Origin: Candidatus Hodarchaeota archaeon | GTDB taxonomy: Archaea; Asgardarchaeota; Heimdallarchaeia; Hodarchaeales; Hodarchaeaceae | Assembly: GCA_016839815.1 (NCBI GenBank) | Contig: JAEOTM010000133.1 | Coordinates: 1 to 64,000 of the forward strand | Reading direction: 5' to 3' | DNA length: 64,000 nucleotides | Shown here: positions 46,636-62,097 of the stretch, piece after piece | How positions within the stretch are numbered: the stretch's first letter is position 1 | How the letters are laid out: each line of letters starts with the position of its first letter | Translations under genes and position numbers: made by a program | The notes under the pieces: generated by a model | The model's input: only the letters and a program-made list of their open reading frames with translations | Databases searched by the model: none | Told to the model about the DNA's origin: nothing

Positions 46636-47151
46636 TTAAGTATTTAGGTTGAACCTTGAAACAGTTTCAGAGAGATTATCTGCTAATTCGGTTAAGCTTT
46701 CGGCTGAGGAAGCCATCTGATTCATTGCCGCTGTTTGCTCTTCTGTAGCAGCAGCTACTTGTTCACTAGAGGCACTAAATTCTTCAGATTGTGCTGAAAA
46801 TCCCTGTATAGTTTCATGTAAGGTAGAAATGTTCCCAGCTATATTTGTAACCATCCGATCTGTGAGATTCGAGATATCAGAAGCATTCGTTTTGGTTTCT
46901 TCAGCTAATCTTCTTACATTATCTGCAACAACTGCAAATCCGCGTCCGAATTCTCCAGCTCGTGCCGCCTCAATTGCTGCATTGAGAGCTAGGATATTAG
47001 TTTGACTAGCAATGTCCTCTATTACCTGTAAAGTTGTTTCTACATCTGCTAATGAGTGATCAACCACTTCTGAGATTCTTTTAATTTCCTCTATTGTTTT
47101 TACTGACTGACTGACTTTCAGGGAGTTTAGTAATTCCCAATTTTTGAAATA
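46636..47151 (-). pseudogene. Truncated chemoreceptor signalling domain
   Basis: 143 residues from a GTG (47067) match the signalling hairpin of chemoreceptors, including the highly conserved tip [41 protein letters not shown] and the helix [19 protein letters not shown] in outline. The same frame stays open upstream to 47151, encoding [19 protein letters not shown], similar in its last part to the intact receptors here, and is then stopped by TAA (47152-47154). No ATG or ribosome site lies in this part. The sensor, membrane and HAMP regions are missing. It is most likely a gene remnant; a short soluble signalling protein is less likely. Confidence 0.7.
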
Positions 47152-47226: not shown

Positions 47227-47928
47227 TCAACTAAATCTAGGAATTGTAAATTCAACGGTTGTGCCTTTATTGATTCCAGCACTGTTTATCGACATTGTTC
47301 CGCCGTGATTTCTTATTATTATATTGGAAATGAATAAACCAATACCCGTACCCCCAATTGAGTATTTCGTGGGTATTGAAACAAAGGGATCTGAGACTTT
47401 CTTCAAGTCTTGAATGGAAATCCCAGCACCATTATCTGAAATTGAGATTTTGATGATATCAGTCAGAGTCAGATTGCATAATACGCTTATATGTCTACGA
47501 GTTATAGAAGTGTGGTCAATTGAATTTTGAATTATATTGTCAATCGCTTGAGCAATGCGTTCTGAATCTACCACAACTATCGAATTCTTTTTACCATTAT
47601 GAATTAATTTGTATTCAAAACGTTTTTCAAATCTTATTCTATATGGTTCGAATATAGTTTCTAGTAAATCAGAAATATTAACAGAATCCAGAACTAAATT
47701 TAGGTTACCTTGCGTTATATTATCAAGCTCATCGATACTGCCAACAAAACGTTCTAAGCGAAGAATATTCTTATCTAGAAGCTGAAAACACCTATCTCGT
47801 TCCTTAGAAGTCAGTTTTTCATTTTTTGAATTTAAAATTTCACAATATCCTTTAACTATATGTAGAACCTGTCTTAGTTCTCGTGAAGTCAATGATAAGA
47901 ATTCTGATTTAAATTGGTCTGTTTCCAA
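47227..47928 (-). CDS. Histidine-kinase-like protein lacking the phospho-accepting His
   Basis: 233 residues without membrane segments or sensor. The dimerisation helix reads SEFLSLTSRELRQVLHIVKG, where the usual box is SHELRTPL: the phosphorylated His is Arg (CGA codon, clear in the DNA). The ATPase domain keeps the N box (NIIQNSIDHT), G1 (DNGAGI) and G2 (GTGIGLFISN) elements. It resembles the C-terminal 230 residues of the large kinase encoded 190 bases upstream on the same strand, so it is probably a truncated duplicate. ATP binding is plausible; autophosphorylation by the normal route is not. It could be a decoy or a trans-acting partner of the large kinase. Confidence 0.85.
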   Translation of the reverse strand: METDQFKSEFLSLTSRELRQVLHIVKGYCEILNSKNEKLTSKERDRCFQLLDKNILRLERFVGSIDELDNITQGNLNLVLDSVNISDLLETIFEPYRIRFEKRFEYKLIHNGKKNSIVVVDSERIAQAIDNIIQNSIDHTSITRRHISVLCNLTLTDIIKISISDNGAGISIQDLKKVSDPFVSIPTKYSIGGTGIGLFISNIIIRNHGGTMSINSAGINKGTTVEFTIPRFS

Positions 47929-48063
47929 TTTTGTTCACTCCAAATCATTTTTAGGATATTTTGATTACGTTTTTCACCTTATTTCTTTAAATTGTGTCAT
48001 TAGATCAGCTTGAAAATAATTATTTTTTCAATCTAAATCCTAATTACCTATTAAACAATATGC

Positions 48064-48110
48064 TTAACTATATGATAAAAATAAGGAAAACAATAAGGAA
48101 AAAAAGGGAA
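48064..48110 (-). promoter_or_regulatory. Promoter of the short histidine-kinase-like gene, with TTTTCCTTAT elements
   Basis: Read on the minus strand, three pyrimidine elements of the type TTTCCC/TTTTCCTTAT (48081-48110) sit directly upstream of a TATA-like TTTTATCATATAG (about 48069-48081). The same T-rich stretch could also end the transcript of the large kinase gene, which stops at 48118. Confidence 0.5.
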
Positions 48111-48117
48111 ACTGAGA

Positions 48118-51100
48118 TTAAGGAGTTCCAAATACACGAGGGAGAGTTAGAGTAAAAGTAGAACCCTTGTCAATCCCATCACTCCTGACAGTGAGAGAGC
48201 CTCCATGAGCAATCATAGTTTGTTTCGCAATAAACAAACCGATTCCAGTTCCAATAACCGAATACTTAGAGGGAAGAGATACAAATTGCTCAAAAATTCT
48301 TTCATAATTCTCAGGAAGAATACCAGTACCATTATCCTCTACTGAAATGGTAATTACATTTGGAAATATTTCTGTTCGCACGTTTATTTTACGAAAATCA
48401 TTTGAGGTGTGTTTGACTGCATTTTCAATTAAGTTATCTATAACAAATCGAATTCGATCTTTATCCATATTTGCATATGCATTAAAGGATCCTGGAGGTA
48501 AAGAAAACATTATTTGATTTTTTAAATGCTTTCTATAGACCTTTTCTTGCTCTTTCATAAATTTACATATCTCTACATCTTTTAAATCAAAACTAAAGTT
48601 GTTATTCTCAATTTTTGAAATATCAAGAACTCCTGTTACTAATCGTTCAAGTCTTCTTATATTTCGCATTACCGTTCCTAGACATTTCTTACGTTGATAC
48701 TCATTTATTTTATCGAAGTGATTTTCTAGGAACTCAGTAGATCCCCTAATTATGGTTAATGGAGTCCGTAATTCATGAGAAGCCATTGTTACAAAATTAG
48801 ATCGATCTTCTTCAGCCTGTTTCAGAATGGAGATATCAGTTACAACGGAAAGATAACCATTCAAAGCTCCATGATCTGAATAAATTGGTGTAGTATTTAC
48901 AATTACTGGTAACAGCGCACCCTCTTTTGTTAGTAAAGTCGATTCAAATGTTCGCTTTGGATTTAATGAAAGTTTTTCAAATTCTAATTTAATTCTAGCA
49001 AATTCTTCAACTGGAATAATGAGATTCCAATATTTCCCGATCAATTCATTTTCGGTATATTCAAGGAGCTCACAAATTTTTGAATTTACAAAGGAGAATT
49101 GATGATCTAAACTTTCCAGTATAACTCCCTCCTGGAGATTCTCTATAAGTAGCTGATACTTATTTTTAGCTTGTCGCAATTCTTCCTCGACCTTTTTCCT
49201 ATCTGTAATATCGCGAGAAATGGAAAGTCCGACTTGTCTATTACTTAATGAAAAAAGGTGTGAATTTATTTCGACTGGAATTTTTCTTCCATTTTTAGTT
49301 ACATGTGCCGTTTCAAATGGTTTATTGACTAGATCAAATATCTTTTTTCCCATTTTCTTAAGTTTTTTATTCTCCTCATCTGTTTTTACATCCAGAGGAG
49401 TCATATTCAATAATTCCTCTTTGGTATATTCTAATCTCTGACAGGCTATATCATTTACCTCAATGAAGAGACCAATTTCTCCATTTGGTAAGATTTCAAA
49501 TAGATAGATTGCATCATTGGCATTATTAAACAGATTCCGATATTTCTCCTCAGAATTTTCTACTAGTAATTCTGAATGTTTTTGGGTTGTTATATCAAAG
49601 AACACTCCGTAAGCGCACTTTTCTCCTTCTTCTTCATAAACCATCAAACCGCGATCATGTAACCAGATATATTCCCCATCTTTTCTTCTAATACGATATT
49701 CAATGTCAAAGGAGGCGTTTTTTTCTAAAAGATTGTTAAATTTTACCTTTACTCTTTCTAAATCTTCAGGATGAATTCTGTTAAACCATAACTCCCTCCC
49801 CGCTTGATATATTTCTTCAGGAGAGTATCCGTATATATCAGAGATATTTTTACTCACAAAGTTCGTATGACCCGTTGAAGTAGATATCCATGTGACCCCT
49901 GGAATATTTGCAATTAAGGATTGGTATCTTTCTTCACTCTCTTTGAGTTGTCTTTTAGCGAGTTCAGAACTGGTTTTATCTCGAAATGATGCCACCATCT
50001 TCATGGGTTCAGTTTGAAAAGCAACTACCTCATAGATTCCTTTGATTTGTGTATCCTCATATGTAATTTGCTCTAGTTTCCACACCTGGCCTGTTCGGGC
50101 TACTCTCCGATAATTTTCTGGAATTTCAGTTTTGCTAAGAGGAGGAAACGCTTCCTCTATTGTTTTACCAATGAATTGATTCGTTTTGACCTTTAAAATA
50201 TCCCCTGCTGCGGGATTTGCTCCTAAAAACACTAATCGTCCGTCCTCCATCAGTTGATATTCTATCATCCCAAAAGGACTTGAATTGAAAATATTACGGT
50301 ATTTTTGTTCTGATAGTTTCAAGTCGCTTTCTGTTTGTTTATAGCCTGTAATATCAACATCTATCTTTAAGAACCCGCACGGAAAGCTATTCTGGTCCTT
50401 TACAAGAGATATTCGCGATCCAGCCCAAAAAATTGTTCCATTTTTTCGCTTTTGCTTAATTTGACCTTTCCAAGTTTCCTTCTCAACAGTTTTTATTATT
50501 TTTTGAAACTCTTTGGACTTTTTTTCTTCAGGAAAGGTTATTGATATGTTTGATCCTAATATTTCCTCTGCTTGATATCCATAAAGATCTCTAGCACCCT
50601 TTCCCCAATAAATTATTTTTTTATTCAAATTGATAGCAACAATTGATTCTTGAACACTATCAAGCAAACGTGCCTGAAAAAGAAGGCGCTCTTCCTTCCT
50701 TTTTCTGACTGTAATATCAATTCCTTGAAGTATTATGAGATTTGTAGGGGAATCTCTTCGATATATCTCATGAGCTGAAAATTCTATCCATCTCTTCTCA
50801 TCATCTCTTCTCTGGATTTCGATTTCAGTAATTTTTTGTAAAAGAGGCCTCGGTTCCTCCACTATAGTTAAAATAGCTTCGCGTTTCTTCATATCTGGTA
50901 CTAAAATTGATAGCCAGGAATCAAGATCATTAATCTCACCTAACTGATAACCAGTAAGACTTTCCATTGCCGCATTGTAATTCAAAATAGTTTTAGTCTC
51001 ATCCAATACAAGTGCAGGTTTCTCACTTTGACTAAATGCATTCCAAATATGTAGATCTTCAATCTTTCTAAACTCAAGTACTTCTAATACATTTCTCAAA

Positions 51101-51729
51101 TCCAAATTCGATTCAAAACCATGTCTTAATTTATTTACCGTATTCTCCTGATTAGAATTCTCCATAGTTTTATTAAAAAATTCTGTACCAATGATAGCAA
51201 TGGGATGTAGCAGGAATATGTCAGTTAGAAGTTTTAAATCAATCTGATTTTTATCGAATTGGTCGAGAAATAAACAATTGTCCTCTACACAAAATTCTGT
51301 AATATATCTTTCAAAATTTAGAAAATCTTGAGTAATATGGTCATTATTTGCCCCCAACCATGACATTTCACTGGCAACGCGTAACTTAGTCTGTCCTTCT
51401 GATATCAGACTACTCGTAAATTCCTTTAATTTTAATATTACACGATAAGGGGAGAAACAACCCGCATCCAGAAAAAACTCTTCTAGTGAAATTATCTCTA
51501 CTTGTTGTGATTGCAGATATTCATCCATTTCAATATACTGTGAAAGTTCTTTAAATATATAATCCCGTTGATCATAAGGGACGATCAATAAAATCTTTTC
51601 TTTATTTTCAATCCCCGAAATAACAAATGATGATAATATATTCAATCTTTCTTTATCATCAGTGTATATATTGCAAATATGTGAATTGATCAGTCCTTTG
51701 TTTGACCCCTGTTTCACATAATCGAACAT
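48118..51729 (-). CDS. MEDS-6xPAS hybrid sensor histidine kinase
   Basis: A 1203-residue soluble sensor kinase. Residues about 15-195 form a MEDS domain (RecA-like ligand or redox sensor: HICNIYTDDKERLNILSSFV, FLDQFDK). Six PAS domains follow between about 225 and 965, several with the typical DITDRK or DITTQK end. A HisKA box (SHELRTPLTIIRG, phospho-accepting His) and an ATPase domain with NLIENAVKHT, DNGTGI and GTGIGLFIAK complete it. No receiver domain is present. The many PAS copies suggest several cytoplasmic cues such as redox state or small ligands. It is the only full MEDS-PAS kinase here and stands divergent from a PAS-DUF835 regulator. Start chosen at ATG 51729. Confidence 0.92.
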   Translation of the reverse strand: MFDYVKQGSNKGLINSHICNIYTDDKERLNILSSFVISGIENKEKILLIVPYDQRDYIFKELSQYIEMDEYLQSQQVEIISLEEFFLDAGCFSPYRVILKLKEFTSSLISEGQTKLRVASEMSWLGANNDHITQDFLNFERYITEFCVEDNCLFLDQFDKNQIDLKLLTDIFLLHPIAIIGTEFFNKTMENSNQENTVNKLRHGFESNLDLRNVLEVLEFRKIEDLHIWNAFSQSEKPALVLDETKTILNYNAAMESLTGYQLGEINDLDSWLSILVPDMKKREAILTIVEEPRPLLQKITEIEIQRRDDEKRWIEFSAHEIYRRDSPTNLIILQGIDITVRKRKEERLLFQARLLDSVQESIVAINLNKKIIYWGKGARDLYGYQAEEILGSNISITFPEEKKSKEFQKIIKTVEKETWKGQIKQKRKNGTIFWAGSRISLVKDQNSFPCGFLKIDVDITGYKQTESDLKLSEQKYRNIFNSSPFGMIEYQLMEDGRLVFLGANPAAGDILKVKTNQFIGKTIEEAFPPLSKTEIPENYRRVARTGQVWKLEQITYEDTQIKGIYEVVAFQTEPMKMVASFRDKTSSELAKRQLKESEERYQSLIANIPGVTWISTSTGHTNFVSKNISDIYGYSPEEIYQAGRELWFNRIHPEDLERVKVKFNNLLEKNASFDIEYRIRRKDGEYIWLHDRGLMVYEEEGEKCAYGVFFDITTQKHSELLVENSEEKYRNLFNNANDAIYLFEILPNGEIGLFIEVNDIACQRLEYTKEELLNMTPLDVKTDEENKKLKKMGKKIFDLVNKPFETAHVTKNGRKIPVEINSHLFSLSNRQVGLSISRDITDRKKVEEELRQAKNKYQLLIENLQEGVILESLDHQFSFVNSKICELLEYTENELIGKYWNLIIPVEEFARIKLEFEKLSLNPKRTFESTLLTKEGALLPVIVNTTPIYSDHGALNGYLSVVTDISILKQAEEDRSNFVTMASHELRTPLTIIRGSTEFLENHFDKINEYQRKKCLGTVMRNIRRLERLVTGVLDISKIENNNFSFDLKDVEICKFMKEQEKVYRKHLKNQIMFSLPPGSFNAYANMDKDRIRFVIDNLIENAVKHTSNDFRKINVRTEIFPNVITISVEDNGTGILPENYERIFEQFVSLPSKYSVIGTGIGLFIAKQTMIAHGGSLTVRSDGIDKGSTFTLTLPRVFGTP

Positions 51730-52114
51730 GTCTTGTCTATCCTAAAATCCTCTGACACACCTTCTATTGAAATTAAACATTCAATTAAAATAAAAATTTG
51801 GAAAGTTCCAAGGAAAGATAAGGAAAAAAGTAAAACTTCTAATTTCAAGTAAGCAATTTTTCTCTTATTTCCTTGACTATTTCAACTTTAATCAAGCTAT
51901 AAAGGGGGAATCCGAACTATACTGATTCAAGAACAGATGAATTTACGTCTAACGTATCAGTGAACACTGTAAACCCTTTTTTTCACATTCAATTTAGTTT
52001 TCACAGGAGAAAAGAAATTTTCTTTCACTAGTTTTTCCATATTCCTTTCCGAATATATATATCAAAACATGGGAATTATCATTTACTTGAAAAATCACTT
52101 AGGGAGAGTACATT
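51730..52114. promoter_or_regulatory. Divergent promoter region of the MEDS kinase and PAS-DUF835 regulator
   Basis: Both directions show the same layout. On the minus strand, TTTTTTCCTTATCTTTCCTTGG (51808-51830, given in part) lies directly upstream of a TATA-like ATTTTTATTTTAATTG (51783-51798), about 30-50 bases from the ATG. On the plus strand, GTTTTTCCATATTCCTTTCC (52031-52050) is directly followed by GAATATATATATC (52051-52063), about 50 bases before ATG 52115. No trustworthy gene lies in these 385 bases. Confidence 0.6.
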
Positions 52115-54721
52115 ATGGCAATTCAGGATGAGACACAAAAAAAATCCAGTTCAAAGGTTACAGAAATTTATAATACCATTTTTGACAATTCACATATTGG
52201 TCTTGCGATCTGTGATTCAGAAGGATTCTTTATTGATGCAAATCCACAGTGCTTAAAGATTTTTGGGATTCCAAGAATCGGAAAAGTAAAGGGATACAGT
52301 TTATTCGAAGAACCTAATCTTTCGGAGATGTTCAAAGAGAAATTAAAATCAGGGAAAGCAGTAATGTATAAATCTGTTTTTAATTTTGAAAAGATTAAAC
52401 AATTAAACCTTTTTGAAACAGAAAAATCTGGAACAATAGATGTTGCTTACCAAATCTCTCCAATCGTTCTTCAAGGACAATCGAATCTTGAGGGTTATAT
52501 TATATATGTCCAAGATATCTCAGACAAGATTCAAGAGCAAAAGGAATGTTTAAGCCATGAAATAAAATTCCAGGAAATTTTTAACAATGTAAATGATGGG
52601 ATAGTGATTACAGATCCAAGTACTCGACCGGGGAGGTTCTTAGAAGTTAACAGAGTTTTTTGTGAAAGACTTGGATACACTAAGTCTGAACTTTTAGAAA
52701 TGAGTACAATGGATACGAATACAGGAGAATTTAATCCTCCGCTCCAAGAAATATATGAAACCTTGGAGAAATATAATTCGGCTACATTCAAAAACGTAGA
52801 CTTAACTAAGGATGGTACTCGCATTCCTGTGGAGGTTAATACGTATCTATTTAGCCTTAATGGTAGACACGTCTTATTATCAGTTTCTAGAGATATCAGA
52901 GATCGGATACAGTTCATAAAACAAGTTGAGGAAAATGATTCTTTGCTTAATACACTTTTAACAAATTTACCATTGGTTCTATATCAGATAAATTCAGAGG
53001 GATTTTTTACTAAATCAGAAGGTGCTGGATTAGTACACCGAGGCCTAAAAGAGCATATAAGAATCGGAGTGAATGTCTTTGAAGCTTGGCCTGAATTCAC
53101 TGATAAATTTCAGCGCGCACTAAGGGGAGAAAATGTACGTTTTGAAGCACATAGGGAAATCAATGGCAAGATGATGTCTTATCTTACTTTTTTAATGCCT
53201 GATAATAACGCTGAAAGAGGGATTATAGGGATTGTTATCAATTTATCCGAGCAGGAGGATTTAAAGAGAAAATTGATCCAAAGTGAGGAGAAATATCGTT
53301 CCTTAATTGATCAGGCGAATGATGGGATTATAATCATTCAAGATGACAAAATGGTGTTAATTAACCATAAATTTGCTAGAATGCTTGGGTACACAATTGA
53401 TGAACTGCAAGACAGATCAAATTTCGATCTTGTTCATCCAGATGTCTCTTCGGAATTAAATGAGCGAAGAAAAAGAAGGTTAAGAGGTGAACAAGTCGAA
53501 TCAATCTACGAAACTATACTAGTGAAAAAAGATGGTGACTCCTTAGATGTCGAATTAAACGTAGATCTTATTGATTACGAAGGAAAACAGGCTTTTCTCT
53601 CCTTCGTTAGAGATATTACTGATAGAAAAAGAGCAGAAAGGCGGATTAAGGAATCAGAAAGAAAATATCGGATGATAATCGAAACTGCACAAGAAGGTGT
53701 CTTTCTACTGGATTCTGAACAGAGAATTACTTATGCAAATCAGCAGTTTTCCGAAATGATAGGGTATTCACTTGAAAATCTGATTGGTCATTCAATATAT
53801 GAATATATCAGAACAGAAACACACAAGAAAATTAAACTCCTCATTAATAGAATCACAAAAGGAACCAAAGAAAGTTTCGATTTTCCCTTTCATCGCAGAG
53901 ATGGATCAATTTTTTGGGGATTACTGCAAACTAATCCAATATTTGACGAAAAGGGAAGAATAAAAGGTATTTTAGGTATGATTCTTGATATCTCTGATCG
54001 AAAAAAGATGGAAGAACAGACTAGAAAACAGCTTTTGAAATTTAACGTTGAGGGGGGTTATGTTTACCTGGTGAAAGAAAGTTCGTCAACATTATCCCTC
54101 AGTGTCTTTAAAGATCTTTGTCAATTAGGATATCAATGCCTAGCTTTTTCTAGAACTCTTGAACGAGATTTCCAAAAGAATATCGATACAGAATGTAGAT
54201 TTTATTGGCTTGCACAAAAAGGAAACTTAAATTCTATTCAACCAGATTTAAATAGTATACTATCAGAAATAGAGAAACAGAACCAAAGATCAGTTGTATT
54301 AATTGACAGATTGGATTTTCTGATTCAGAAAAATGGATTTAAAGATGTTTTGAACTTCATCTATGAATTAAAGGAAATTGCTTACACTGTTGACTTGATA
54401 ATCCTACTCTCTATTGATCCACAAACATTAACAAACCAGGAACTCCATCTACTAGAAAAAGAAACAAGTGAAATCGAGACTAGATCACTGGATAAAATTC
54501 CAGAAGATATGCTTTCGATTCTAAGATTTGTTTATCACAAGAATAATTCGGGAGTTAAGCCTGCTTACTCAGATCTTGGAACAGAATTTCAAATTAGCAG
54601 GCCAACTACAAGAAAACGAATAAAAACTTTAGTTGCTACTGGATATCTTTCAGAATACCGTTTTGGTATTCGCAAGATTTTAGAGGTTACCGAAAAGGGA
54701 AGAGCTTTCTTTTTAGATTAG
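52115..54721 (+). CDS. PAS-DUF835-winged-helix regulator
   Basis: An 868-residue one-component sensor-regulator. About five PAS domains lie between residues 15 and 630. A DUF835 domain (about 640-790: KFNVEGGYVYLVKE to IETRSLD) follows, with a Walker-B-like VVLIDRLDFLI. A C-terminal winged helix (about 795-868) contains DLGTEFQISRPTTRKRIKTLV as the probable recognition helix and a wing. It has no kinase, membrane segment or receiver. A sister gene in reverse orientation is at 58690. It likely senses cytoplasmic cues by PAS and regulates genes directly. DUF835's function is unknown; it looks like a RecA-type fold without a P-loop. Confidence 0.88.
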   Translation: MAIQDETQKKSSSKVTEIYNTIFDNSHIGLAICDSEGFFIDANPQCLKIFGIPRIGKVKGYSLFEEPNLSEMFKEKLKSGKAVMYKSVFNFEKIKQLNLFETEKSGTIDVAYQISPIVLQGQSNLEGYIIYVQDISDKIQEQKECLSHEIKFQEIFNNVNDGIVITDPSTRPGRFLEVNRVFCERLGYTKSELLEMSTMDTNTGEFNPPLQEIYETLEKYNSATFKNVDLTKDGTRIPVEVNTYLFSLNGRHVLLSVSRDIRDRIQFIKQVEENDSLLNTLLTNLPLVLYQINSEGFFTKSEGAGLVHRGLKEHIRIGVNVFEAWPEFTDKFQRALRGENVRFEAHREINGKMMSYLTFLMPDNNAERGIIGIVINLSEQEDLKRKLIQSEEKYRSLIDQANDGIIIIQDDKMVLINHKFARMLGYTIDELQDRSNFDLVHPDVSSELNERRKRRLRGEQVESIYETILVKKDGDSLDVELNVDLIDYEGKQAFLSFVRDITDRKRAERRIKESERKYRMIIETAQEGVFLLDSEQRITYANQQFSEMIGYSLENLIGHSIYEYIRTETHKKIKLLINRITKGTKESFDFPFHRRDGSIFWGLLQTNPIFDEKGRIKGILGMILDISDRKKMEEQTRKQLLKFNVEGGYVYLVKESSSTLSLSVFKDLCQLGYQCLAFSRTLERDFQKNIDTECRFYWLAQKGNLNSIQPDLNSILSEIEKQNQRSVVLIDRLDFLIQKNGFKDVLNFIYELKEIAYTVDLIILLSIDPQTLTNQELHLLEKETSEIETRSLDKIPEDMLSILRFVYHKNNSGVKPAYSDLGTEFQISRPTTRKRIKTLVATGYLSEYRFGIRKILEVTEKGRAFFLD

Positions 54722-55143
54722 AGAATATTCACAAATATTATCGAACGAAAAGAAAAATGAAGTAACAATCAAAATTTTCCCTCTAGTCTAATTATCCTGG
54801 TATAAATATACAAATCTTATTCCCTTTTCAACAAAATTCTCAAACAAGAATCTTTTCATAATTCAAGTAGTTCTCTGTTTCAGTTATTTCTTTCGTCTTT
54901 AAAAAACTAAGATAGCATTTTTCGCTGGAACATAATAAAGCGACTTCGTTTTCATCAAATTTCAGTACGGATTTAGTTAAATTCATAATTTTAAACCAAT
55001 TCTACTTTCTGAGTTGATTGGACCTCTCTTATAGGTCTGATATTCAATTGATCTGAATATGGGAAAATAAAATATCTTAAATATTAATTAAGCAACGAAA
55101 ATGGTAAAATTCGGAAAAAAAAGGGAAAAAATATCCTAAATAG
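54722..55143. other. Convergent gap with T-rich terminator of the chemoreceptor and no clear gene
   Basis: These 422 bases lie between the convergent PAS-DUF835 gene and the chemoreceptor gene. On the minus strand a T-rich run (TTTTTTCCCTTTTTTTTCC) begins within about 15 bases after the chemoreceptor stop and is a good terminator candidate. One small open frame is described separately. No repeat or RNA gene seen. Confidence 0.4.
54840..54986 (-). CDS. Possible small protein of 48 residues
   Basis: An ATG at 54986 opens a frame of 49 codons ending at TGA 54840. It encodes a mixed charged and hydrophobic peptide (MNLTKSVLKFDENEVALL, then CSSEKCYLSFLK) that looks less random than most short frames. 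There is no clear ribosome site and no family is recognised. It could equally be chance. Confidence 0.25.
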   Translation of the reverse strand: MNLTKSVLKFDENEVALLCSSEKCYLSFLKTKEITETENYLNYEKILV

Positions 55144-57060
55144 CTAATTTAGGACTTTTTTTACAGTTTGAGGTTTTACACTTTTTTGAGATTCTAAAAG
55201 TTTGTATTGAGCAGCTAAAACGGTCATCTCATCTCCAAGTATAGTAAGCTCTTGAGCAGAGGATGTTAGCTGATTCATAGCTGCCGTTTGTTCTTCGGTG
55301 GCCGCAGCGACTTGTTCACTTGAAGCACTGAACTCTTCGGATTGTGCAGCAAAACTTTGTAAAGTTTCCTGAAGATTAACAACACTAGAACCAATATTAT
55401 TGACAATATCGTTAGTAACTTTACTTATATCAGCGGAATTTGTTTTAGTTTCTTCTGCCAATCGTCTTACATTATCTGCAACTACTGCAAATCCTCTACC
55501 ATATTCACCAGCTCTAGCTGCCTCAATGGCTGCATTTAGCGCAAGGATATTTGTTTGGCTTGCAATGTCTTCGATTACTTGTAAAGTTCCTTCAATATCT
55601 TTTAAGGACTGATCGACAACATCTGACATCTTTTTAACTTCATCTATGGCCTTAACTGATAAATCGGATTGGGTTGACGCCCCACGACTAATTTGTTGGA
55701 TTGTTGCTGCAATTTCTTCAGATAATGCATTTACTTCTTCAGAAGTCGAGGCTAATTCCTGGGCTGATGAGGCTAATTGGACTGCGGAATCCTGAGAACT
55801 TGAAATAAAATTCTTTAGATTGCTGATCATTGTAAGGAATGTGCGTCCAAGTGTACCAACCTCATCCACTCGATCTGTATCTAATTTTGAGACATCAGCT
55901 GTCAAATCGCCAGCTGAGACTTCTTCACTGAGCGCTGACATATTTGTTAGAGGCTTGGAAAAGCTAGTGGAGAAGTAAAATGCAATTATACCACAGACTA
56001 CTGCACTTACCATTGCTAAAACAACAGTATTAAACATATTGTTGAATACAAGGGCCTGCACTGATGAGACATTTTCAATAACCACAAGAACATACTCCCA
56101 ATCATCAGAACTTTCAAAACTTGCCAAATAAACTACTGATTCAATTTTAACTTTTTGATGACCATGATGAGTATCTTCAGTAACAATAGCATCTCGCATA
56201 TTTCTATTAGCTGAACTTGTGTTTTTTAGTAATGTAGATATATCGGTTCCAATATATGAAACATCAGAATGAGTGAATATCATCCCACTCCTTAATACTG
56301 TGAAGGCACTGGCTGAGGCTCCTTCCTCTGGATCAAAATTATCTTCTAAAAGTTGTGAAACAGCTCCAACGTCGTATCCTGCTTTTATCATTCCGATGAA
56401 TGTACCATTTGCTGATTCAACTTCAACTACAATGTCCATAAGAAATTGCCCTGTACTATCGTCATAACCGAATTCATGGAACACACCATTTGAGGATTGC
56501 CTGCAGGCAGTCCACCATCCTTCATCTACTTGTAGAAAATCACCTGGAACAGATTCAGTGGAAGCGTAAACATAACCTCTTTGATCTGTAACAAAAATTT
56601 CTGCATAATTATATTCTAGTGCAAAGTTGTTCAAATATTCCGAATAGAAGGGATCAATATCATTAGTGGGATCCCAAGCTACTGAAGTTTTATTTCCCTT
56701 TTTATTGAGATCATTATCCCAATTTGCTCCTTCGTAACTATCCCATAACAGCATTTCATTTGAGGAAGTCGCATTTAATGCCGTAATAACGGTTGCAGGA
56801 TTTTCTCCTAAGTTCTCTACATTTAAGCTCTGAGAAGAAAGTAAATTTTCTACAGTCGAGGTACTCTGGAACGCTAAAGTCGCCAAATTATCGTATTTGG
56901 TATTATATAAGTTAGTTTCCACATTATTGATGTTAAAAAAGCTTATTCCTAATATTGGCACCAAAGCAATAATCAATGTAAAAAACATGATTTTATAGGA
57001 AATTTTTTTACCAATTAATGGAAATTCTTTTGGAAAACTAAAAGCCATATGTCTTTTCAC
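55144..57060 (-). CDS. Methyl-accepting chemotaxis protein with dCache sensor
   Basis: Transmembrane chemoreceptor of 638 residues. An N-terminal helix ([19 protein letters not shown], about 25-44), an outer dCache-type sensor (about 60-320, with [19 protein letters not shown] and [10 protein letters not shown]), a second helix ([20 protein letters not shown]), a HAMP region (about 355-410) and a signalling hairpin (about 430-620) with the tip [41 protein letters not shown] in outline. Methylation is suggested by CheR in the same island. It has no C-terminal CheR-tethering pentapeptide. dCache sensors bind amino acids or organic acids, fitting a peptide-using cell. Confidence 0.94.
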
Positions 57061-57364
57061 CTAATTAATTTCTTCACCTTTATTTTTAATTCTAATAATA
57101 CTGAGTAAGATTTTTCCAATTATCTAATCCCTTTACTATATTATATTCATAGGGAAAAAAACCATGAAACATAGGAAAACTGTGCAATTTCTTTGGGAGT
57201 TTCTCGTTTTATCTAAAAAATACTCTCTCCTAATACTTGTACAATCCTACTTTAAGTAAAGAAATTTGTGGGGGGTAGTTACGATAAAGGTTCACGTTTT
57301 TTTATGGTTTTCTCAAGAATAAGACTAGGAGTAGTAATTTTATATGAGGAGAGGGATAAAATAG
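57061..57364 (-). promoter_or_regulatory. Promoter region of the dCache chemoreceptor
   Basis: On the minus strand, two pyrimidine elements (GTTTTCCTATG at about 57170-57180 and TTTTTTCCCTATG at 57149-57160) lie just upstream of the TATA-like GAATATAATATAGT (57135-57148). The ATG is 75-90 bases further down, with AGGTG before it. The rest of the 304 bases is AT-rich intergenic sequence with no gene seen. Confidence 0.55.
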
Positions 57365-58525
57365 TTAGGTGAGTTGGAATTTCCGAACTTGAGTTGAGAG
57401 CTTTGTACTCATTTCAGCCAAATCTTGTGCAGCTTGAGTCATTTGATGCATTGAGGCTGATTGTTCTTCGGTGGCTGCAGCTACCTGTTCACTCGAAGCA
57501 CTAAACTCTTCTGATTGGGCAGCAAATCCTTGTAATGTCTCTTGAAGAGCTGATACACTTCCACCAATATTATTCACTATTTCTTCTGTTAAATTCTTAA
57601 TGTCGGCTGCATTTTCTTTGGTTTCTTCGGCGAGACGTCGAACATTGTCAGCTACCACAGCAAAACCCCTCCCAAATTCTCCAGCCCTTGCAGCTTCAAT
57701 TGCAGCATTTAGCGCTAAGATATTTGTTTGACTGGCTATATCTTCTATTACTTGCATTGAAGTTTCGATATTTTCCAGTGTTCGATCGACAGCACTAGAC
57801 ATTTCCTTTACATCTCCAATACCTTGAATAGCGAAATTGGATTGATTTGATGCACTTCGACTGATTTGTTGGATTGTCGCAGTTATTTCCTCTGAAAGCG
57901 CATTCACTTCCTCTGCTGTTGAAGCCAATTCCTCGGAAGAGGTAAATAAATTATCTGAAGCTTTCTGAGATTCCAGTATTATTTGAGCTATGTTTCCTGC
58001 CATATTATTTAGAGAATCCTCAACATACCCAAACTCTGTTCCGAACTTCACCAATCCTTCCTCCTTAATATTTAGGTGTCCCAATGAGATTTGATCTAAC
58101 TGAGCTTGTAGAGAGGATAATGGAGTTTGTACAGTTTTAATGGTATAAATGACTAAAAATACACAGAAAGTACCAATAAAACCATAGATAATAAGCGTTG
58201 TTGAAAGTGTTTCCCCCATCATCCTAGTCAGCGATGAAGACAATCCAATGATTGTTGAACATAATGAAAAGCACAAAGAGATTCGAAAATAGATACTTTG
58301 CTTAAAAATGATCCTTAGTCCTATAGAAAAAGCGATCCCAATCCCAATATTCATGATTAAACTCGCTTCTACAGGTGTTGTCGATCCCATCATTTCTGAT
58401 GGGAGGAATTGAGTGACAATAAAAGTAGTAGATCCTATAACAAAGGATATTAAACTAAATAGACCAATCGCTTTTATATAATTTGGATCATTTAGGAAAT
58501 TCTGTTTTATTTTGTAAGCACACAT
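57365..58525 (-). CDS. Chemoreceptor with four-helix membrane module and no outer sensor
   Basis: 386 residues. The first 130 contain four transmembrane helices with very short loops, so there is no extracellular sensor. A HAMP-like linker (about 131-185) leads to the full signalling hairpin (about 190-375) with the same tip as the other receptor ([19 protein letters not shown]). It may sense membrane state, redox or energy level, as other integral-membrane receptors do. It starts at ATG 58525, preceded by AGGAAG, and follows the PAS-DUF835 regulator in the same direction by about 165 bases. Confidence 0.92.
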
Positions 58526-58584
58526 ATGTCTTCCTCATAATATGATAATGGATTTTTTAATCACTTTCTGAGAATAATATTCAA

Positions 58585-58625
58585 TATTTATATATAAACA
58601 ATAGGAAAACATAAGGGAAAATTGT
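58585..58625 (-). promoter_or_regulatory. Promoter of the four-helix chemoreceptor with paired TTTTCC elements
   Basis: On the minus strand, ATTTTCCCTTATGTTTTCCT (about 58603-58622), flanked by CAAT and ATTG ends, directly precedes the TATA-like TTATATATAAATA (58585-58597), about 60-70 bases before the ATG. Confidence 0.6.
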
Positions 58626-58689
58626 GAAAACTGAGTTTTAAAGAAGGAGTCGAAGAAATTAGTCAGGTCAATACGTGAAAAATTTGTAT

Positions 58690-61302
58690 TCATTGATCAG
58701 ACATATGCGAAAATGAATTTAAACCTCTGAGTGTTAGCTCTAATACTTTGGTCCTTCCTTTTTGATTTTCTCTCAGATATCCGATTGAGGTTAGATGTTT
58801 AATACGTTTTCTTACGGTGGGTCTACTAACTCCCAATTCATTAGCGACTTGTGTATAACTTGGTTGAATCCCATTATTATTGCTAGCATAAATGAATCTC
58901 AATATTTCTAAGAGGTGCAAGGGAATTTCTGCTAGAACTCTTGTTTCTACCTCATTGGTCTCTTTTTCCAGTAATTTTATCTGTTCATCCGAAATTGTTT
59001 GACTATCGATTGATAGAATAATTACCAGATTCAAGAATATGGCTGTTTCCCTTAATTTGTAGATGAGCAAGAGAGTCTCTTTGAATCCATGTTTCGAGAT
59101 TAAATAATCTAATCTCTCAATCAGAATTACAGTTTTCGGTGGTAAACCTTCAATAGTGTGCTCTATTTTTTCGAATAGGGATGAAAATTTACTTTCTAAT
59201 ACTATTTCTGCAAGCCATAAATGCTTGAACTCTACATCTAATCTTTCCATACATTCGATTTCTGGAGTTCTTGACAAAATTGTACCTGAGTATCCAATCC
59301 GAATCATGTCACAGAATACTTCTCTCGAAAGGATCGGATCAACCTCTTTCACAAGATATAGTTGCTGATCTTCGATATTGAATTTAAGTAATTCCTGTCT
59401 CATTTTAGTTTCTATTTCTTTCTGTTTTGTTACATTTCGCCAAATACTCCCAATCATGAATCCAGACTGAGTTTTAATCGGAAATACATTTATTTGTACG
59501 TAATTATGTCCTCCATCTCGTTTCGTGATCTCTGTCTCAATTGGTCTTGAAAGCCATTCAGCTTTCCCTGTGTCAAGTACTCTAGTGAGTCTCTCAATAA
59601 TCAGGTTTGTAGATTCCGATTGAAGAACGTGAGTTGGCATTAAGGGTTTGTATATTTCCCAAAAAGGTTTACCAATGGCTATCTCCTTACTAATTCCTGT
59701 TAATTTCTCTATACCCCGATTCCATTGTACAACTTGTCCTTCTTCAGAAATAAGAATAATTCCATCACGAGAATTATCAATTAGATTTCTAATTTTAGTT
59801 TCACTTTCTCTTATGTTTTCTTCGATTTCTTTTAAGTATGTGATATCAACAAGAGAAGCATAAACCTTGGAAAGTGATTTCTCAAATCCAGGGACCACTG
59901 AAACTTTAATAATTACGTTTATCTTTTTTCCGTTAACGGAATAAATAATCCCCTCCCTTTCAAGGTTCATTTTGCCATTATATAGAGCGAGAAAATCATT
60001 CCTAAAATGTCTTAGTTGGTCCCCAAGAACAATGCTTGATTCTCCATATAAGTCTTCTATACTATCTGCTTCAAATAACTCTAGCGTAGATGAATTCGCT
60101 TTTACCGTTTTTGATAATTTTGCAATTGTATATGGATTTCTCTCTAGATATTCTTCCAAATCAACAATACCATTTTCTTTTAATTGATCCAAGAATTCCT
60201 TAGCCTTAGAGAAATCCAATTCGCGAATTGATACAGGAGAATCTTCAAATAATTGTCTGAAACTAATTTCACTTTCCCTAAGTGCGATTTCAGATTCCTT
60301 AAGAGCAGAAATATCAGTTACTGTTATAAAAACCTTAGAAAGACAGTCTTCAAATCCTGGAACAACAGCTGCTCTAATAAGTACATGAACACATTCACCT
60401 TTAAAGGTGTAAGCAGTTGTTTCTGTTTCAAATTGTGTTTCATTCTTAATGAGAGAAAAAATTAGGTCTGTAAAAGCAAATCGCTGTTCTTCACGAAGAT
60501 TCTTAAAGTTAGATCTTTGAAACTCTTCAATACTATTGGCGCTATAAAAGTTCAATGCAGCCTTATTTATACTATTAAATTTTGCATGATTGAGAATAGA
60601 ATTTAATTTCTCAGGCTCTCTTTTAAAATATTCATGAAAATTTTTAACCCCCGCTTTGCTTAGCTTGTCAAACCTCCTTTTTATTTCGGAGAAATCAACT
60701 TCCAATAAACTAATGGGTGAATCTTCGAATAGCCGCCGAAATTTCGCTTCACTCGTAATTAAACTATCTTCGATATTCTTTCGATCTGTTATATCGGTTA
60801 ATATACCATAACAATACTTGGTTCCGTCCTCCTCATAAGTAGTTAAACCTCGATCATGAAGCCAAATCCAAGAATTATCTTTTCTTTGAATTCGATATAC
60901 AACATCAAATATTTTATCGTCTGAAAATAGCTCTTTAAATGCCTTTTTCACATTATTTAGATCATCTTTATGAATCCTACCAAACCAGAGGTTTTGTTCA
61001 GCTTCATAAATTTCTTGGGGGGAGTATCCATACACTTTTTCAATATTAGGACTAATATATGTTGTCAATCCATCTTCATTCGTAATCCAACTCACAGCTG
61101 GAATATTCTCCACTATAGATTTGTATATTTCATCGCTTTTCAGTATCTTCTTTGATTTGAATTCTTCTCGGTCGATGAGATCTTCCATTACGTTCCTAGA
61201 GCTTAATTTGTCCTTTTTTTGTTCAGAGAGAGCTGTATGAATTATTTTCTTAACATCTTCAGATATATCTACTCTACTGAGAAGAGATTCAAGCTTTTTC
61301 AT
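58690..61302 (-). CDS. PAS-DUF835-winged-helix regulator (sister of the gene at 52115)
   Basis: 870 residues. A short helical start is followed by four PAS units: the first is typical PAS_3 (DGLTTYISPNIEKVYGYSP), the second and third are an unusual type beginning FEDSPIS/V and with a Val-Pro-Gly-Phe-Glu turn (VVPGFEDCLSKV and VVPGFEKSLSKV), and the fourth is plain. DUF835 (about 640-790, with VILIERLDYLISK) and a C-terminal winged helix (VANELGVSRPTVRKRIKHLT) end it. It shares the DUF835-wHTH part with the gene at 52115 along its full length, so both come from one duplication with different PAS parts. It probably regulates local promoters. Confidence 0.88.
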   Translation of the reverse strand: MKKLESLLSRVDISEDVKKIIHTALSEQKKDKLSSRNVMEDLIDREEFKSKKILKSDEIYKSIVENIPAVSWITNEDGLTTYISPNIEKVYGYSPQEIYEAEQNLWFGRIHKDDLNNVKKAFKELFSDDKIFDVVYRIQRKDNSWIWLHDRGLTTYEEDGTKYCYGILTDITDRKNIEDSLITSEAKFRRLFEDSPISLLEVDFSEIKRRFDKLSKAGVKNFHEYFKREPEKLNSILNHAKFNSINKAALNFYSANSIEEFQRSNFKNLREEQRFAFTDLIFSLIKNETQFETETTAYTFKGECVHVLIRAAVVPGFEDCLSKVFITVTDISALKESEIALRESEISFRQLFEDSPVSIRELDFSKAKEFLDQLKENGIVDLEEYLERNPYTIAKLSKTVKANSSTLELFEADSIEDLYGESSIVLGDQLRHFRNDFLALYNGKMNLEREGIIYSVNGKKINVIIKVSVVPGFEKSLSKVYASLVDITYLKEIEENIRESETKIRNLIDNSRDGIILISEEGQVVQWNRGIEKLTGISKEIAIGKPFWEIYKPLMPTHVLQSESTNLIIERLTRVLDTGKAEWLSRPIETEITKRDGGHNYVQINVFPIKTQSGFMIGSIWRNVTKQKEIETKMRQELLKFNIEDQQLYLVKEVDPILSREVFCDMIRIGYSGTILSRTPEIECMERLDVEFKHLWLAEIVLESKFSSLFEKIEHTIEGLPPKTVILIERLDYLISKHGFKETLLLIYKLRETAIFLNLVIILSIDSQTISDEQIKLLEKETNEVETRVLAEIPLHLLEILRFIYASNNNGIQPSYTQVANELGVSRPTVRKRIKHLTSIGYLRENQKGRTKVLELTLRGLNSFSHMSDQ

Positions 61303-61425
61303 AGGGTATTCTAGTTACACATTTCTCAATAATAAAGCATTACAAATAAATTAGAAAGTATTTCAATTTCCCCCTCAAAAATGCTTGTAGAAATAATACT
61401 TTGACTGTTAAATTAAGGTTATAAC

Positions 61426-61995
61426 TTAATAAGCTTTTAACTTATTATTTTCAATTTTAAAAGAGTTTAAATCAATTAATTTCGTTTCTTTTTCCAATAG
61501 ACGTAGATTACGTGAATCTACTCCGTGAATTTTAAAGGAAATAATTACGATTAATGATTTTAAAATCACTAATTCTTTTAATTTATATATAAAGTGTAAA
61601 ATCTGTTTAAAACAAGTATGAGAAGTTAAATCATCCAATTCTTTTATAAATAGGATCTCCTTCCCTGTAGTTTTACTCACTGTATTTTTAATGGAATCAA
61701 ACAAAAATTCAGAGAGAGAACTTTCCATCACTTGTTCCATGTATTTTAAGGAAGTATGAATAGGTAAACCATCCTTTAAATCCTTTTCTGGACTTTTGGA
61801 TATGAGAATGACTTTATAACCTGCAGAAGATACGAAATTCAAATTTTCTTGAGAAAATAATGAAAAACCCTTCGTTAAGAGGTATATGCTTCCGGGTTGG
61901 AGTTCTAAACCTACTGGTAAATTCTCTAAAGTTTCATTTGGAATATTAGAATGATCTAATTTGTCTATTATTACGAGATAATAAGTATTGTTCAT
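61426..61995 (-). CDS. Stand-alone DUF835 protein
   Basis: 189 residues. The family part runs GSIYLLTKGFSLFSQEN through ILFIKELDDLTSHTCFKQILHFIYKLKEL to LRLLEKETKLIDL, the same C-terminal landmarks as in the two large regulators (LLEKET). It stops where the winged helix would begin in those, so it has the sensor-like or interaction domain alone. No membrane segment and no P-loop. It lies between a PAS-DUF835 regulator and the longin-like gene in a minus-strand run. It may pair with the DUF835 part of the regulators. Confidence 0.8.
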   Translation of the reverse strand: MNNTYYLVIIDKLDHSNIPNETLENLPVGLELQPGSIYLLTKGFSLFSQENLNFVSSAGYKVILISKSPEKDLKDGLPIHTSLKYMEQVMESSLSEFLFDSIKNTVSKTTGKEILFIKELDDLTSHTCFKQILHFIYKLKELVILKSLIVIISFKIHGVDSRNLRLLEKETKLIDLNSFKIENNKLKAY

Positions 61996-62066
61996 TTCAT
62001 CACGATTTGTTCTTTTTCTTTGAGTTTAGAGTCACCCTGAGTGTTGAACTCTATATTATCTCTAAC

Positions 62067-62097
62067 TTTTTATTAAAATAAAGATAAGGAAAATTTC
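62067..62097 (-). promoter_or_regulatory. Promoter of the stand-alone DUF835 gene with TTTTCCTTATC element
   Basis: On the minus strand, GAAATTTTCCTTATC (62083-62097) directly precedes the TATA-like TATTTTAATAAAAA (62067-62080), about 70-85 bases before ATG 61995. The element matches those of the neighbouring sensor promoters. Confidence 0.55.

Follow-up and report, generated by a model that had tools for sequence, protein, structure and literature searches.

A tandem TTTTCC-TTAT element as a candidate operator of PAS-DUF835-winged-helix regulators in a Hodarchaeal signalling island

Which protein, if any, recognizes the TTTTCC-TTAT element that stands in front of sensory genes in a Hodarchaeal genome? 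The question is raised by a 64,000-nucleotide stretch of DNA (contig C98:1-64000, the window) from genome G000, a metagenome-assembled genome (MAG) of 4.24 Mb in 206 contigs with an estimated contamination of 7.8% and mechanical gene calls. Between 46.6 and 64 kb the window holds an island that encodes chemoreceptors (methyl-accepting chemotaxis proteins, MCPs), a MEDS-PAS histidine kinase, a short HisKA-HATPase protein, two PAS-DUF835-winged-helix proteins (A and B), a DUF835-only protein, and CheR (Table 1). The initial annotation had reported the element in six promoters of this island, and all six are found there, in the sense orientation of the genes named. The comparisons described below make it likely that the element serves as operator in a local regulon that controls itself, with its direct repeats predicted from sequence to be bound by PAS-DUF835-winged-helix proteins, here chiefly protein B.

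The unit of the element is TTTTCC(C/T)TAT(G). Most of the sites contain two or three copies in the same direction with a step of 10–12 bp, and since the last TTTTCC begins ~9–12 bp ahead of a TATA-like run, the final copy covers the position of the TFB recognition element (BRE). The promoter of the 386-aa chemoreceptor has an extra TTTTCAC 9 bp upstream of its two-copy pair. For 83 promoters elsewhere in the genome whose TATA box is clear, the stretch from -7 to -3 is A-rich, and the BRE positions of the island are without this signal. An archaeal BRE is a purine- or A-rich stretch of 6–7 nt at the TATA box, present in one copy and genome-wide. The element does not fit this description, being T/C-rich, repeated, and local, and the difference from the purine-rich BRE that had been proposed earlier is supported.

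The specificity of the element is a matter of its position. The plain motif TTTTCCTTAT, with at most one mismatch, occurs 21 times in the whole window against an expectation of 17.2 ± 4.5; this count shows no excess over chance and has been dropped as uninformative, and the signal therefore lies in where the motif stands, not in how often. As a promoter background, 266 non-island upstream regions have been taken from ~450 kb of stretches (~10%) of the same genome. The pattern TTTTCC[CT]?TAT is present in 5 of the 8 island upstream regions and in 1/266 others, the tandem TTTCC-N4..9-TTTCC in 4/8 and 0/266, and either of the two in 6/8 and 1/266 (Fisher p = 3.5e-10, an optimistic value because the patterns are derived from the island itself). 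The antisense strands of the island upstream regions contain neither pattern. An unbiased count of 6-mers ranks TTTTCC first for enrichment in the island promoters. When the whole genome is searched for a tandem TTTCC followed by an A/T run, four island promoters are recovered, and all inspected matches outside the island fall either within coding sequence or at the 3' ends of genes. The element thus stands at several promoters near a regulator gene and is rare elsewhere, as in the regulon of a one-component regulator. A loose form of the tandem TTTCC, applied to five whole genomes, gives ~1.4–2 times the matches of a reversed-pattern control on both strands and has been set aside as too unspecific.

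The element does not belong to chemoreceptor genes in general. None of the four MCP genes found elsewhere in the genome (on C78, C151, C50, and C44) has it, and most MCP promoters of the relatives are also without it, which rules out a general chemoreceptor element. Its earlier description as an element of sensory genes holds for the six island genes but does not extend further, as it is the regulator that the element follows: in relatives, genes for Arf-like GTPases and response regulators carry it.

A comparison with related genomes had been proposed as a check, and the element is retained both in the congener G010 and in a second family of Heimdallarchaeia; its retention at orthologous promoters is not evident in G005. 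The syntenic island of G010 has the element upstream of the MCP386 ortholog (three TTTCC), a second MCP gene, and the DUF835-alone gene. At the last of these, the TTTTCCTTATC-TTATTTTA block is near-identical amid a poorly conserved intergenic region. An ortholog of protein B is present in G010 (67% identity over the C-terminal part) and in G005, and no counterpart of protein A has been detected in G010. Because G010 retains B and the element without a detected counterpart of A, protein B is the likelier binder.

In the second family, genomes G033, G034, G022, G036, and G055 (CSMAG_1088) have a DUF835-winged-helix gene in a signalling island, together with a MEDS-PAS hybrid kinase, response regulators, PAS kinases, and Arf-like GTPases. 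No MCPs have been detected in the four genomes of this family that were searched. At loci L163, L164, L165, L166, and L184, TPR-like proteins and several Arf-like GTPase genes lie beside the PAS-DUF835-winged-helix gene, and the composition of these islands suggests that two-component and small-GTPase signalling are linked. Several of the island promoters read TTTTCCCTAT-TTTTCC(C/A)TRT-TTTTTCAC, with a 10 bp step. Exact matches to this 17-letter pattern fall within the single DUF835 island in both genomes searched throughout (6/6 in G033 and 4/4 in G034), and the tandem is present in 3/5 island promoters of G033 against 0/140 others. Since the pattern was derived from these same sites, what counts is that separate promoters have one unit in common, and that this unit equals the Hodarchaeal one. 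Among orthologous GTPase promoters, the tandem is present in 5/5 genomes with the regulator and in 0/3 without a detected regulator. The latter are G048, G051, and G043, in which no DUF835-winged-helix gene has been detected and the promoter of the first GTPase gene is without the element; in G048 this gene is 85% identical to its ortholog, with an element-free promoter. The element is thus lost in all three GTPase orthologs where the regulator is absent, in a sample that is small and not independent.

More distant homologs extend the association. In the intergenic regions beside DUF835-winged-helix genes, the tandem is present in 17 of 42 against 0.55 expected from shuffles, many of the regions being orthologs of one another. 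Further tandems lie beside homologs in SZUA-236, G002:C283, G002:C240, G007:C296, and the euryarchaeal MAGs of L190 and L191, the last three in the form TTTTCACTACTTTTCA. In G002:C240, a gene for the transcription factor TFB (TFIIB) at L156:5125-6268 has the TTTTTTCC tandem upstream and a PAS-DUF835-winged-helix gene adjacent to it. Newly found homologs, tested prospectively, give a mixed result. G082, G054, G034:C112, and G036:C50 have no site, and G002:C243 (L264:7675-8366), a decayed DUF835-winged-helix copy, has two sites beside it, upstream of genes for a response regulator and a 215-aa protein. In G082 (L258:8678-11403), the DUF835-winged-helix gene again lies between small GTPase genes, with no TTTTCC element.

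The candidate binder has a suitable domain. An AlphaFold2 model of the C-terminal 218 residues of protein B (mean predicted local distance difference test, pLDDT, 85; predicted template modelling score, pTM, 0.59) consists of a DUF835 domain followed by a winged helix. The fold of the winged helix matches AF1382, ArsR/MarR-type proteins, and TubR in Foldseek, and its sequence profile matches TubR (E = 4e-6) and AspA best among solved structures. TubR binds direct-repeat centromere arrays and represses its own promoter (PMC5016525). On the other hand, TubR and AspA are plasmid partition proteins without PAS or DUF835 domains, and the resemblance spans only ~66 residues. DUF835 itself is described as an inactivated KaiC-like domain in PMC5847659, alone among the papers searched in naming it, and no DNA target of any DUF835 protein is named in the literature searched. 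Of the two binders suggested by the initial annotation, both carry the winged helix, and the G010 comparison favours B over A. The suggestion of a local PAS-DUF835-winged-helix binder is supported by the specificity of the element, its conservation in G010, and its co-occurrence with regulator genes, and the binding itself is a prediction. An association of an Arg/Lys before the PT motif of the recognition helix with TTTTCCC or TTTTCAC sites has also been considered and dropped, as the cases are few and there is one clear exception.

Based on these observations, we propose that the regulators would bind direct repeats of ~TTTTC(C/A)(C/T)TAT, 10–12 bp apart and on the same side of the helix, just ahead of the BRE and partly overlapping its position. 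The winged helix would hold the repeats and the PAS domains would provide the signal. Binding may be head-to-tail, a mode that is plausible because TubR, the profile match, binds direct-repeat arrays. The usual place for activators to bind is upstream of the BRE, and the promoters concerned often have a weak BRE (PMC5512572); recruitment of TFB/TBP to a weak BRE has been proposed for EarA and other regulators that bind there (PMC5512572, PMC10665913). The bound protein would most likely assist TFB/TBP recruitment in the same way at the weak-BRE promoters of the island. Provided that the protein binds, activation is the modestly favoured outcome, and repression through the blocking of TFB is less likely. 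The DUF835-alone gene in front of the gene of protein B carries the element, so B is probably autoregulated, and the 62084 site probably serves the B gene as well, as a downstream, co-transcribed gene. The wider proposition is put forward tentatively: members of the family may act head-to-tail on 10–12 bp TTTTC(C/A)C repeats over the BRE region as dedicated controllers of Asgard signalling islands, acting on chemoreceptors and MEDS kinases in Hodarchaea and on Arf-like GTPases and hybrid kinases in the second family.

Several observations weigh against an operator read by these proteins. The gene of protein B (start 61302) is not immediately preceded by an element. Roughly one in two DUF835-winged-helix loci shows no nearby site; among these are the C36 group, both G005 loci, G004, and G082, which is from another class. 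At the DUF835 genes of L190 and L191 themselves, the likely TATA box comes first and the site follows it, an arrangement that suggests autorepression in these two cases. In the comparison of five GTPase promoters with three, the intergenic region itself differs once the regulator gene is absent, and the second-family islands represent one lineage, so that the p-values are not independent. Finally, in a permutation test with 7-mers, 5/200 random sets equal the island promoters. Together with the circularity of the patterns, this last result means that the weight of the argument rests on the tests in other genomes.

The 7-mer permutation also bears on the possibility that the sites are a chance likeness of T/C-rich stretches in an A+T-rich genome, as does the fact that single copies are common and reach only the expected count across the window. 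The enrichment at the level of promoters, the tandem layout, the conservation across species, and the confinement to DUF835 islands make this explanation scarcely credible. The sites could also be T-rich terminators of the preceding genes, as archaeal terminators are T-rich and the 48081 site and two second-family sites begin no more than ~10 nt past a stop codon. The 48081–48110 case, flagged from the start as partly ambiguous, does remain so, because it starts ~8 nt after the stop codon of the MEDS kinase gene (48118). The accompanying caution about T-rich look-alikes past stop codons was also justified: TTTTCCCTTTTTTTTCC at 55113–55129 (- strand) lies between convergent genes, just past the stop of the 55144 receptor gene, and serves no promoter. 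Yet gene 3' ends in general rarely match. The pattern is found at 5/447 of them, four of these in the island and three of the four being the promoters at issue, and this count speaks against terminators as the identity of the element. Moreover, TATA-like runs come after the sites, and tandems also occur between divergent genes, where there is no 3' end (51800, 52033, and the second-family GTPase promoters). A terminator origin is accordingly very unlikely.

Another alternative is that the element is recognized by one of several TFB paralogs rather than a DUF835 protein, as a BRE variant or promoter class peculiar to this lineage. The final copy does overlap with the BRE position, four TFB genes are present in the genome, and the TFB gene of G002 with the upstream tandem adjoins a DUF835-winged-helix gene. 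A variant BRE is nevertheless hard to reconcile with two to three copies per promoter and with the restriction to one island per genome, whereas TFBs act genome-wide; all four TFB genes lie on contigs other than that of the island, and the element is missing where the DUF835-winged-helix gene is missing. We regard it as improbable. A real operator with another binder, for example a response regulator or a winged-helix protein that is unlinked but inherited along with the island, would fit the absence of nearby sites from about half of the DUF835-winged-helix genes. This explanation is unlikely as well, given that PAS-DUF835-winged-helix proteins are the only kind of DNA-binding protein that the Hodarchaeal and second-family islands are seen to share, while the target genes otherwise differ. 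An operator bound by PAS-DUF835-winged-helix proteins thus remains the preferred reading.

Repeated short sites upstream of the BRE are of a known kind. The sites of EarA are short direct repeats, several copies side by side, just ahead of the BRE/TATA region of promoters with a weak BRE, and EarA controls motility genes (PMC5512572, PMC10665913). By description, the two systems are set apart: the EarA repeats are TACATA-like and belong to the archaellum operon, whereas the element here is TTTTCC-TTAT and its candidate binder is a PAS-DUF835-winged-helix protein. A search of the whole genome G000 has detected no archaellin, which speaks against an EarA/archaellum regulon. A second likeness is the UV-inducible A(N)TTTC hexamer of Sulfolobus, which is non-palindromic, contains TTTC, and lies upstream of a weak BRE at -44 to -39, near the position of TTTTCC relative to the TATA box (PMC5817253). 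The hexamer occurs in one copy per promoter at 214 genes across the genome, in the UV response, and its binder is not known (PMC5817253), while the element here is in tandem, in one island, and linked to a regulator. Among archaeal response regulators, DUF835 follows PAS domains in signalling proteins, as it does here; PMC5847659 lists REC-DUF835 and REC-PAS-PAS-DUF835, and the proteins of the island end in a winged helix, with no REC domain detected.

The regulator family, the element, and the setting are new within the literature searched. If the prediction is correct, this would be the first predicted target site for the PAS-DUF835 winged-helix regulator family. Gene regulation in Asgard archaea is poorly known, and the predicted regulator-operator pair recurs with different targets in two Asgard families, one target set being eukaryote-like Arf GTPase genes. 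It would offer an entry point to the control of Asgard sensory and GTPase systems that is directly testable in vitro.

Table 1. Element sites, genes, and the winged-helix domain of the island, in window coordinates
Feature	Position	Strand	Composition or evidence	Gene served or proposed role
Element site	48081–48110	-	TTTCCC and two perfect TTTTCCTTAT, 12 bp step, then TATA-like TTTTTATCATATAG	Upstream of 47928 kinase gene
Element site	51800–51827	-	Three TTTCC, 10 and 12 bp steps, then A/T run 51783–51797	MEDS-PAS kinase promoter
Element site	52033–52050	+	TTTTCC-ATATTC-CTTTCC, 12 bp step, then TATA 52053–52062	PAS-DUF835 A promoter
Element site	57149–57179	-	TTTTCCTATG (57170–57179) and TTTTCCCTAT (57149–57158), then TATA-like AATATAATATAG	638-aa chemoreceptor promoter
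Element site	58599–58630	-	TTTTCCCTTAT and TTTTCCTATTG (58599–58621, 12 bp step), TATA TTTATATATAA	386-aa chemoreceptor promoter
Element site	62071–62093	-	Single copy TTTTCCTTATC (62084–62093), TATA TTTATTTTAATA	DUF835-alone gene promoter
HisKA-HATPase protein, 233 aa	47227–47928	-	No sensor domain	Possible target gene
MEDS-PAS histidine kinase, 1203 aa	48118–51729	-		Predicted target gene
PAS-DUF835-winged-helix protein A (52115 protein), 868 aa	52115–54721	+		Second candidate binder
Chemoreceptor, 638 aa	55144–57060	-	dCache-HAMP-MCPsignal	Predicted target gene
Chemoreceptor MCP386, 386 aa	57365–58525	-	MCPsignal	Predicted target gene
PAS-DUF835-winged-helix protein B (58690 protein), 870 aa	58690–61302	-		Best candidate binder
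C-terminal winged helix of protein B, ~residues 795–865	58708–58920	-	AlphaFold2, Foldseek, profile match
DUF835-only protein, 189 aa	61426–61995	-	No winged helix	Predicted target gene

A few further features have been observed. Upstream of the C36-type PAS-DUF835 gene, a stretch of ~50 nt beginning with GCTGACTTTCCCTCCCTCCCCCCTCTTA (L084:13990-14437, L161, L162) is strongly conserved in three species, and a search of Rfam with this stretch returns no credible family. Genome G000 has seven MCPsignal matches; chemotaxis genes are present and an archaellum has not been detected. At 46636–47067 the window contains a truncated chemoreceptor of 143 aa with the MCPsignal domain only, which is probably a remnant.

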